A stretch of DNA of 64,000 nucleotides from contig JAFGBU010000022.1 of NCBI GenBank assembly GCA_016932995.1, positions 1 through 64,000 of the forward strand. The letters are read 5' to 3'. Made by a program: the position numbers and the translations under genes. This stretch comes from Desulfovibrionaceae bacterium. Its GTDB lineage: Bacteria > Desulfobacterota > Desulfovibrionia > Desulfovibrionales > Desulfovibrionaceae. Position 1 is the stretch's first letter; each line of letters opens with the position of its first letter. Below, one piece after another: positions 2,729-50,942 of the stretch. The notes under the pieces were generated by a model. It was not told where the DNA came from. It was given only the letters and a program-made list of their open reading frames with translations, and searched no databases.

Positions 2729-4855
2729 ATGCTCAGAAAAATCCTGCCCTTTCTCGACTGGTTCAAGGACTACGACGCCCACTCCCTCAGAGCGGACGCC
2801 ATCTCCGGCCTGACCGTCGCCCTGGTGCTCATCCCCCAGTCCATGGCCTACGCCCAGCTGGCCGGCCTGCCCGCCTACTACGGGCTGTACGCATCGTTCC
2901 TGCCCCCGCTGATAGCCGCCCTGTTCGGCTCCAGCCGCCAGCTGGCCACCGGGCCGGTGGCCGTGGTCTCGCTCATGACCGCGGCCTCGTTAGAGCCCCT
3001 GGCCACGGCCGGAAGCGAGGGCTACATCGCCTACGCCATCCTGCTCGCCCTGATGGTCGGCGGGTTCCAGCTCCTGCTCGGGGTCCTGCGCCTGGGCCTG
3101 GTGGTCAACTTCCTCTCCCACCCGGTGGTCAACGGCTTCACCAACGCCGCGGCGATCATCATCGCCAGCTCGCAGCTGGCCAAGATGTTCGGGGTCTGCG
3201 TGGACAAGGCCGGGCACCACTACGAGACCATCATCCGCGTGGTCCAGAGCGCCCTGCACTACACCCACTGGCCGACACTGGGCATGGGCCTGCTGGCCTT
3301 CGGCCTGATGATCGTCTTAAAGAAGATCAACCCCCGAATACCGAACGTCCTGGTGGCCGTGGTCATCACCACGACCCTGTCCTGGGCCCTGGGCTTCAAC
3401 CACGACGCCAGGACCCCGCTCTCGGCCGTGCAGTCCGCCGAGGTCCGCGAAAAGGTCGAGGACTACAACGCCATAGTCCAAGGCCTGGACAGGCTGGCCG
3501 AGGAGCGCACCGTGGCCGCGGCCGGGCTGGACTCGGCCAGGGACTCCGGGGACCCCATCGCCCGGATCAAGGCCGAGCACGACCTGAGCGTCATCAACGT
3601 CAATATCGCCGGGCTCAAGGACCGGGCCGGCCTGCTGCGCGCCGACCTGCGCGCCGGGCTCTTCGACGGGGTGCGCGCCTCGGACGGCGGCCTGTTCCTG
3701 TTCCCCAAGGGCGCGGCCCCGCAAAGCGCCCGGACCGACGGCCGCACCTGGCGCATCAAGGTCGGCAACAAGGGGCTGGATCCGGCCGGGCTCACGGTCA
3801 GCGGCGGCGGCGCGGTGGTCGGGACCATCCCCTCGGGCGTCCCGTCCATATCCCTGCCCCGGGTGGACCTCAAGGTCATGCTCCAGCTCTTCCCCTTTGC
3901 GGCCATAATCTCGCTTCTCGGGTTCATGGAGGCCATCTCCATCGCCAAGGCCATGGCCGCCAAGACCGGCCAGCGCCTGGACCCCAACCAGGAGCTCATC
4001 GGCCAGGGCCTGGCCAACATCCTGGGCGCCTGCGGCAAGAGCTACCCGGCCTCGGGCTCGTTCTCCAGGTCCGCGGTCAATCTCCAGTCCGGGGCCAAAT
4101 CCGGGCTGTCGAGCGTGTTCACCTCGCTCATGGTGGTCGTGACCCTGCTCTTGTTCACGCCCCTGCTCTACCACCTGCCCCAGGCGGTCCTGGCCGCGGT
4201 GATCATGATGGCGGTCATCGGGCTGATAAACGCCTCGGGCTTTGTCCACGCCTGGCGGGCCCAGTGGTACGACGGGGCGATCTCGATCATCGCCTTTGTC
4301 TGCACCCTGGCCTTTGCCCCGCACCTGGACAAGGGCATAATGGTCGGGGTGGCGCTTTCCCTGCTCGTGTTTCTGTACAAGAGCATGCGGCCGCGCGTGG
4401 CCTCCCTGTCCAGGCACGAGGACGATTCCCTGCGCGACGCCACGGTCTTCGGGATGCGCGAGTGCGAGCACATCGCGCTGGTGCGTTTCGACGGGCCGCT
4501 GTTCTTCGCCAACGCGAGCTTTCTGGAGGACCAGATCACCGAGCGCATGATGACCAAGAAGGCGCTCAGGCACATCATCATCGTGGCCAACGGCATCAAC
4601 GACATGGACGCCTCGGGCGAGGAGGCCCTGTCGCTGATGATCGACCGCGTGCGCAGCAACGGCCTGGACATCTCCATCTGCGGGGTAAACGAGGCGGTCA
4701 TGGCCGTGCTCAGGCGCACGCACCTGTTCGAGAAGATCGGCGAGGACCACATCTACCCGAACATGGAGGTCGCGATCTGCGCCACCCACGAGCACGCGCA
4801 CAGGGACGGGGGGGAAAAGGCCTGCCCCCTGACCACGGTCTGCCGTCTCACCTAA
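2729..4855 (+). CDS. SulP-family anion transporter with STAS domain
   Basis: The 708-residue inner-membrane protein belongs to the SulP/SLC26 family of sulfate, bicarbonate or other anion transporters. The family start GLTVALVLIPQSMAYAQLAG is at about residues 28-47, LLGFMEAISIAKAMA is in the second half of the membrane domain, and a C-terminal STAS domain contains ALVRFDGPLFFANASF. It is longer than the usual 550-600 residues because about 135 residues, partly coiled-coil-like, are inserted after the segment ending ALGFN (about residues 228-360) and before IPSGVPSISLP. Substrate is not certain; sulfate is plausible in a sulfate reducer. GAGG precedes the ATG. Signalling genes follow directly. 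Confidence 0.93.
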   Translation: MLRKILPFLDWFKDYDAHSLRADAISGLTVALVLIPQSMAYAQLAGLPAYYGLYASFLPPLIAALFGSSRQLATGPVAVVSLMTAASLEPLATAGSEGYIAYAILLALMVGGFQLLLGVLRLGLVVNFLSHPVVNGFTNAAAIIIASSQLAKMFGVCVDKAGHHYETIIRVVQSALHYTHWPTLGMGLLAFGLMIVLKKINPRIPNVLVAVVITTTLSWALGFNHDARTPLSAVQSAEVREKVEDYNAIVQGLDRLAEERTVAAAGLDSARDSGDPIARIKAEHDLSVINVNIAGLKDRAGLLRADLRAGLFDGVRASDGGLFLFPKGAAPQSARTDGRTWRIKVGNKGLDPAGLTVSGGGAVVGTIPSGVPSISLPRVDLKVMLQLFPFAAIISLLGFMEAISIAKAMAAKTGQRLDPNQELIGQGLANILGACGKSYPASGSFSRSAVNLQSGAKSGLSSVFTSLMVVVTLLLFTPLLYHLPQAVLAAVIMMAVIGLINASGFVHAWRAQWYDGAISIIAFVCTLAFAPHLDKGIMVGVALSLLVFLYKSMRPRVASLSRHEDDSLRDATVFGMRECEHIALVRFDGPLFFANASFLEDQITERMMTKKALRHIIIVANGINDMDASGEEALSLMIDRVRSNGLDISICGVNEAVMAVLRRTHLFEKIGEDHIYPNMEVAICATHEHAHRDGGEKACPLTTVCRLT

Positions 4856-49938: not shown

Positions 49939-50013
49939 TGGTAGGCGCGAGGAGATTTGAACTCCTGACCCCTTGCGCGTCAAGCAAGTGCTCTCCCCCT
50001 GAGCTACGCGCCT
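49939..50013 (-). tRNA. tRNA-Val (anticodon GAC)
   Basis: A 75-base cloverleaf has acceptor strands AGGCGCG/CGCGCCT, D-arm GCTCAGGGGGAGAGC, anticodon arm CTTGC-TTGACGC-GCAAG with anticodon GAC, T-arm CAGGAGTTCAAATCTCCT, discriminator A and encoded CCA. Confidence 0.96.
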
Positions 50014-50030
50014 CCCGACCTTAACAGAAT

Positions 50031-50166
50031 GTTGAAAAAGTCCGTCCTGCACTTTTTCAACTCGATTCGGCGAAACCGCGGTTTCGCCGAATCTCCGCAA
50101 TCATTGGCTTCCAATGATTCCGGGCGCGCCGTCCCGGCGCGCGGAGGTTGTTGATAAACAACCTCC
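50031..50166. repeat. Array of five adjacent perfect hairpins
   Basis: Five inverted repeats follow each other almost without gaps: 50031-50041/50051-50061 (11 bp), 50064-50093 (30-base perfect palindrome), 50099-50107/50111-50119 (9 bp), 50124-50130/50136-50142 (7 bp) and 50143-50152/50157-50166 (10 bp, GATA loop). All arms are perfect complements, but the five differ in sequence. The array fills the gap between tRNA-Val and the HEAT-like gene, both on the minus strand. No coding sequence or U-tract terminator explains it. Confidence 0.85.
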
Positions 50167-50204
50167 TAAGGGGAAGGTCTATGTATATGCCGCCCAAGAC
50201 GTTG

Positions 50205-50942
50205 TCAAGCGCGCCGGCCATGGTCCGCCGAGGCCTCGGACGCGATCGCCTCCCTTATGATCGAGGCCGCCTCAAGGGCCAGGCCGCCCACGGTGGCCGA
50301 CTCCAGGACGTTGTCCCGGAACAGGGTCAGTCCGGCCGTATCCTCGGCCAGGGCCGTGAGCCCGGCCAGGGCCTCGGGCGCGGCCAAAAGGCCCAGGGCC
50401 CAGGCCGCCAGCCCCCGGTTGGCGGGATCGGACTCGGCCAGCCCGAAATCCATGAGCGGCCTTGCCGCCGGCCGGGCCAGCCCGGGCCAGGCCTGGGCCA
50501 GGCGGCCGACGCCCCAATAGGCCCCGCGCCTGAGCTGGTCGTGGTCCAGATAGTTGCCGTCGCGGCCCTTGGCGGCGTCGATGTAGGAGATCAGTATCGA
50601 GTGGTACTCCCGGGCCAGGCCCTGGTGCGCGGCCATGGCCGAGGCCATGGACTCGGGCACGCCCCAGCCGAGGTTCCCGGACTCCTCGTTCATGTGCCAC
50701 ATGAAGTTGCGCATCAAGACCCGGGCCTGCTCCATGGACCCCTCGGCCAGGCGCCGGGCCGTGGGCCCGAACGCGGCCGCGGCCCGCCAGCGGATGTCCT
50801 CGTCCGGATCCAGAAGCAGGGAGAAGAGCGGGCCGGTCAGCTGGTTCGGGGGCCAGTGTTCGAGCTCGGCCAGGCGCTGCGGCCACTCGGCCGCGGCCAG
50901 GACCTCCCGGACCTTGGACTTCAACTCCCGGAAACGGGGCAT
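50205..50942 (-). CDS. HEAT-repeat-like protein, 245 aa
   Basis: The 245-residue soluble helical protein has HEAT/PBS-lyase-like repeats: SLLLDPDEDIRWRAAAAFGP, and later DPANRGLAAWALGLLAAPEA. A conserved central stretch, MRNFMWHMNEESGNLGWGVP, carries aromatic and acidic residues typical of a specific family, but I cannot name its function. It is the last gene of the leftward operon that starts with the ferredoxin, and its transcript would run into the hairpin array. GGGGGAG precedes the ATG. Confidence 0.82.
   Translation of the reverse strand: MPRFRELKSKVREVLAAAEWPQRLAELEHWPPNQLTGPLFSLLLDPDEDIRWRAAAAFGPTARRLAEGSMEQARVLMRNFMWHMNEESGNLGWGVPESMASAMAAHQGLAREYHSILISYIDAAKGRDGNYLDHDQLRRGAYWGVGRLAQAWPGLARPAARPLMDFGLAESDPANRGLAAWALGLLAAPEALAGLTALAEDTAGLTLFRDNVLESATVGGLALEAASIIREAIASEASADHGRRA

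Follow-up and report, generated by a model that had tools for sequence, protein, structure and literature searches.

A MITE-like element beside tRNA-Val in a Desulfovibrionaceae genome carries five hairpins, two of a kind with loops resembling Csr/Rsm sites

REP/BIME palindromes are moved by RAYT, and the bcr1 repeats of Bacillus cereus are dispersed units of about 155 bp with a conserved secondary structure. TwoAYGGAY and the Rsm RNAs, to our knowledge, are not known to occur as dispersed elements that bear terminal repeats and duplicate their target. Duss et al. defined the high-affinity Csr/Rsm site as a hexaloop, ANGGAX, that sits immediately on a stem, AGGAX pentaloops being weaker (PMC4005645). 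Within the IS1182 family of insertion sequences, ISPse1 has inverted repeats of 16 bp and duplications of 4 bp (PMC3281130), and IS1272 reportedly targets inverted repeats, inserting into them and taking their place (PMC5678879). The signature of template switching has been described by Monttinen and Loytynoja (PMC8794818). Our literature search returned nothing on IS1182 MITEs with hairpins, nor on MITEs in connection with CsrA. Here, we describe a locus that is compared with these systems.

The hairpin chain and its element

The locus lies in a 64,000-nucleotide stretch of a Desulfovibrionaceae genome, referred to as the window. Hairpins are numbered h1 to h5 in element order, that is, along the minus strand:

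50180-50208, minus strand: putative tRNA-Val promoter TTGACA-N17-TACATA, upstream of the element
50166-50169, minus strand: left target-site duplication, TTAG
50025-50165, minus strand as sense: whole element, 141 bp, aligned without gaps to 18 other complete copies
50143-50166, minus strand: h1, arms 50143-50152 and 50157-50166, 10 bp; holds the left terminal repeat
50124-50142, minus strand: h2, arms 50124-50131 and 50135-50142, 8 bp
50095-50123, minus strand: h3, arms 50095-50107 and 50111-50123, 13 bp with one mismatch
50064-50093, minus strand: h4, arms 50064-50078 and 50079-50093, in the window copy a perfect 15-bp palindrome with no spacer
50031-50061, minus strand: h5, arms 50031-50041 and 50051-50061, 11 bp; adjoins the right terminal repeat
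50025-50040, plus strand: right terminal repeat CAGAATGTTGAAAAAG, beside h5
50021-50024, minus strand: right target-site duplication, TTAA, one base different from the left copy
49939-50013, minus strand: tRNA-Val (GAC); 7 nt separate its mature 5' end from the target duplication

All five abutting hairpins of the original prediction are present at 50031-50166, well beyond chance expectation. Gaps of 0-5 bases between the arms had been claimed throughout, which fails for h5 with its 9 nt between the arms, and the claim of perfect arms holds for the inner part of h3, whose full 13-bp stem contains one mismatch. When folded as minus-strand RNA, the segment 50020-50180 reached -86.7 kcal/mol compared to -47.2 ± 4.1 kcal/mol for shuffled sequences (n = 200; z = -9.65), and 0 of the 200 shuffles was equally stable. 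An array of intrinsic terminators, each a GC stem followed by a T run, was rejected in agreement with the original prediction, as one weak site was found where 0.6 were expected; an A5/T5 tract lies inside the h5 stem itself. The window copy has the h1 loop TATC, which is the reverse complement of the GATA in other copies, and in its h3 the usual loop GGCTTCC is exactly inverted to GGAAGCC. Its h2 loop is GGGAC, in which the A of the family loop A(N)GGA is mutated to G, and its h5 loop reads C[AGGAC]G.

The same unit recurs in its own genome (2.48 Mb, 49 contigs) as 19 complete copies, 7 copies cut at contig ends and 3 with internal deletions. The 19 complete copies align over the 141 bp almost without indels, the others being 85-92% identical to the window copy. 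On the sense strand the element starts with 5' GAGGTTGTT... and finishes with ...CAACATTCTG. As seven half copies stop at contig ends, the repeat evidently broke the assembly; contig ends inside element copies were seen in contigs C3, C7, C8, C16, C38, C39, C44, C47 and C48 of G000. The three deletion copies have an identical internal deletion that joins the loops of h2 and h5, which share CCAGGACGG, and may have arisen by recombination or slippage between these two loops.

Both ends of the element bear terminal inverted repeats of the TGTTGA type, NAGNNTGTTGANAAA, which are imperfect in the own genome and whose pattern occurs there only at element copies (about one control match). Target-site duplications were evaluated base by base: in the own genome the first base was equal on both sides in 19/20 copies versus 10.5 by permutation and the fourth in 18/20 versus 13.5, and in the wide set the corresponding values were 34/43 and 37/43 versus 18 expected. 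The target is the 4-bp sequence NTAN, mostly CTAG, TTAG or TTAA. With heuristic gene calls, many copies in this GC-rich genome coincide exactly with a stop codon, which the duplication overlaps, and the orientation of the copies towards neighbouring genes is balanced. The element holds no protein gene, is short and is dispersed in many copies. It is therefore a MITE-like element by its length, lack of genes, dispersal, terminal inverted repeats and 4-bp target duplication, and its mobility is well supported. Correspondingly, the mobile palindromic element that the original prediction had offered as one option is borne out by about 29 dispersed copies with such ends and duplications, and the search of the genome and its relatives for a second copy returned many. 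Two short copies (S1 and S2) flank a gene in inverted orientation, which however resembles an ordinary gene for a membrane protein and not one for a transposase.

At the window copy, the sense strand reads TTGACA-N17-TACATA, 10 nt, TTAG, element, TTAA, 7 nt and tRNA-Val. A TTGACA occurs about 35-65 nt upstream of tRNA-Val in most of the roughly 25 relatives inspected; a consensus promoter scan did not call TTGACA-N17-TACATA. The upstream gene ends within the putative promoter, so that readthrough is also conceivable. By either route the tRNA-Val precursor should carry the element in sense, and the window copy probably lengthens the pre-tRNA-Val leader, with removal of the element by RNase P being our assumption. 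The copy offers a natural test of how long an additional 5' leader may be for a tRNA gene to tolerate it. An element copy just upstream of a tRNA gene was also seen in genome G205 (L256, 1340-1660).

A family across phyla

An exact h1-h2 junction was found in none of the GTDB genomes, a set from which the own genome's records may have been excluded. This null result had first suggested a genus-specific repeat, an idea that was dropped when the h5 pattern revealed a wide family. The five-hairpin plan is present in about 30 genomes of Desulfobacterota, Gammaproteobacteria and Planctomycetes, and two relatives (G005 and G016) share the identical chain plan with other stem sequences. In named genomes, a set gathered by the h5 loop, the h5 pattern marks at least 114 stretches; carriers are Deltaproteobacteria, Gammaproteobacteria (Chromatiales, Cellvibrionales, Saccharospirillum, Lysobacter) and Planctomycetes including the cultured isolate Botrimarina hoheduenensis, together with a possibly contaminated Chloroflexi bin. 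Among 297 genomes from the phylum, a covariance model matched about 14 strongly (E < 1e-19), the own genome included, with up to ten per genome among the matches listed. The closed genome G312 has about 20 copies in 1.6 Mb, and none was found in viral contigs.

Across 13 diverse sequences, 88.7% of the cells were paired, a value biased upward because the structure was derived from the very alignment tested, and 32 of 48 pairs had changed on both sides. The covariation score was 0.471 versus 0.168 in shuffles (0/500 as high), and sliding by one column gave 0.14-0.15. The arms, for which the original prediction had proposed a covariation test, hence display strong compensatory change across genomes. 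The combination that the original prediction had named as its refutation, no second copy together with no compensatory changes, was therefore not what the data showed. Thirteen further genomes found by the covariance model have elements with different termini (CAGGCTGTTGAAAAA, CAGGCTGCTGAAAAA, GAGCCTGTCGGAG, AGAGACCTGTTGCA and others); despite this, the loops of h2 and h5 are both A(N)GGA in 13/13.

Several variants of the arrangement were observed. Two copies stand head to tail in L168 (4439-4774) and L171 (5920-6163); those in L168 share one TTAA, as though one copy had used the other's target duplication as its insertion site. At L137 (156-414), about 90 nt of extra inverted-repeat sequence in the tip of h3 lengthen that hairpin. 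Common in Desulfovibrionales is a further MITE-like family, about 157 bp long, which has the element's ends and target but one long hairpin (CACGTATG...ATACGC core; L064 1499-1658, L066, L068, L070, L072, L074, L086, L090, L092). G312 (L282-L361) also houses another element of 158-168 bp with the ends CAGNNTGCTGAAAAA, which is not a five-hairpin chain (e.g. at 1061405, 1094032 and 1554095 of the joined stretch).

The h2 loop follows CA(N)GGANG in 51/55 copies and is inverted in none, and across the family the h2 and h5 loops often form a C[ANGGAN]G hexaloop. At least two hairpins with A(N)GGA loops are accordingly found throughout the family, the window copy being one whose h2 loop has lost its A. 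Judged by these loop sequences, h2 and h5 appear to be of the Csr/Rsm type and may bind CsrA. The own genome encodes csrA. Among Desulfobacterota, csrA is present in 15/16 strong carriers versus 6/15 others (Fisher p = 0.002; comparators non-random and genomes related), whereas the association was not significant (p = 0.18) against strict no-hit genomes only. Named carriers have csrA in 8/10 cases, and the three carriers in which a csrA match was absent are all draft genomes.

The folded strand and competing readings

To tell which strand is folded, G·T and A·C mismatches were counted in the stems with strand-symmetric scoring. On the strand bearing GGA, stems of the wide set had 79 G·T versus 6 A·C mismatches; the ratio was 34 to 6 when contexts distinct within a genome were counted and 27 to 6 when contexts were reduced by hand across genomes (p = 0.0003). 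One-sided changes within genomes amounted to 68 G·T versus 51 A·C (p = 0.14), with 15:13 in the own genome, and this weak excess implies that resident copies are not maintained as RNA. Within the own genome, copies decay neutrally. We read this as source copies being kept as a folded single strand while inserted copies drift, and we infer that this strand is RNA rather than a single strand of DNA. The structured RNA suggested by the original prediction is partly supported by the strong cross-genome covariation and, indirectly, by the sense-strand G·T excess.

Some copies of the own genome carry loops that are exact reverse complements of the usual ones (h1 in L001, h3 in L001 and L009, h5 in L011); in L019 the h5 loop is inverted with one change, and L013, L014 and L015 have two-sided arm changes that are private to single copies. 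Loop inversions together with paired arm changes in one copy match the template-switch signature (PMC8794818), which suggests that template switching perfects arms and inverts loops. For this reason, covariation among the copies of one genome alone is no proof of an RNA function, and the argument for such a function draws on the loop conservation across genomes.

Taken together, we regard as rather likely a non-autonomous transposon with a conserved, folded five-hairpin cargo and loops of the Csr/Rsm type. Mobilisation of such a MITE-like element would depend on a DDE transposase acting in trans, probably an IS1182-like one, which cuts at NTAN and leaves a 4-bp duplication. The element would carry no gene but the conserved hairpin chain acting as one folded strand, and source copies would most likely yield RNA that CsrA can bind via the A(N)GGA loops of h2 and h5. 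More tentatively, the family may be a mobile one that spans several phyla and conserves a CsrA-binding RNA as its cargo; this Csr/Rsm sponge or ligand would have taken up its ends from different transposons. Somewhat more doubtful is the view that this is an ordinary MITE and that its hairpins arose as by-products, with template switching at replication perfecting the arms and flipping the loops, so that the GGA loops would have no role in RNA. The own-genome loop inversions and paired arm changes fit this account, as do the private changes, which are nearly symmetric between G·T and A·C; the shared variation, however, has its G·T excess on one strand, A(N)GGA is kept in h2 and h5 across phyla and differing termini, and h2 is never inverted.

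The folded strand could instead be single-stranded DNA, its hairpins being recognised at transposition or replication by the transposase or a host protein. Single DNA strands tolerate G·T wobbles as well, and the reported insertion of IS1272, an IS1182-family member, into inverted repeats, which it replaces (PMC5678879), would suit such recognition. We nevertheless consider this improbable, because the ends, the related transposase and the 4-bp duplications all belong to double-strand DDE transposition, the termini vary while the core stays, and a Y1_Tnp (PF01797) single-strand transposase had no match in the own genome. A local signal that processes or regulates tRNA-Val is most improbable of all: the copy does lie between the putative promoter and the tRNA in sense direction, but about 28 other copies occupy different sites in the genome, most of them at the ends of genes, and relatives have tRNA-Val without the element. 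The RNA-processing signal releasing tRNA-Val, also put forward in the original prediction, is not supported on the same grounds, as the genome's other copies are not beside that tRNA.

If the core is a CsrA ligand, transposition would seed sites for a global regulator into genomes, a possible route to rewire Csr networks, and a bacterial MITE would be shown to conserve a non-coding RNA as its cargo. Even if CsrA plays no part, the copies of one genome provide a natural data set for following how template switching homogenises arms and inverts loops.

Transposase and comparison with known systems

Among 99 relatives, 31 contain the pattern TARCAGNNTGTTGAAAAA, with zero control matches, and in one relative such an end directly precedes an IS1182-like transposase gene. 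Its product matches NF033551 (E 4.8e-44, below the cut-off of that model) as well as PF05598 and PF01609. Four IS1182-like copies in relatives start with NTAR-C[AT]GC[GA]TGTTGAAAAA, all of them truncated or at contig edges, and have one end in common with the element. An IS1182-like transposase gene was not found in the own genome, nor was a complete IS with both ends matching the element in any genome searched. Near solo ends, the search for an autonomous partner met ordinary genes only, and pairs of terminal repeats 0.6-3.5 kb apart in the 1.6 Mb of closed genome G312 were only pairs between separate short elements. The end sequences suggest that the element is probably linked to an IS1182-like transposase.

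Compared to the IS1182 family, fragments of which in relatives share the element's end sequence and NTAR target, the element differs in being without a transposase gene, and some members of its family have other termini. Like REP/BIME, the element is a short, dispersed, intergenic palindrome, but its five hairpins differ from one another, its ends are inverted repeats flanked by 4-bp duplications, and its genome has no Y1_Tnp gene. With bcr1 it shares, by description, dispersal and a structured fold.

With respect to RNA families, searching the window and relatives against Rfam gave no family other than tRNA at threshold. TwoAYGGAY (RF01731) and the Rsm RNAs (clan CL00106) resemble the element in their hairpins with A(N)GGA loops and matched its relatives weakly, every match being below threshold; RsmW and TwoAYGGAY, both of clan CL00106, are among the nearest models after TD-2. 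The TD-2 RNA (RF03162) itself is the nearest: its match to relative L256, in which h3, h4 and h5 are the hairpins aligned, scores 41.0 bits (E 3.6e-5 for 221 bases). The window copy had no match to this model, and the score of the relative is under the gathering score of 48.7. A Spirochaetaceae contig (L142; h5 pattern at 4634-4661, minus strand) has hairpins with an ACGGAT loop, GAG and an AGGAT loop in a TD-2-like order, and this locus looks intermediate. The TD-2 model itself contains an AUGGAU-loop hairpin, followed by a GAG hairpin and lastly by the hairpin GCUGAAAAGUGUGC-ACGGAU-GCACACUUUUCAGC, which is the order of h2, h4 and h5 in the element.
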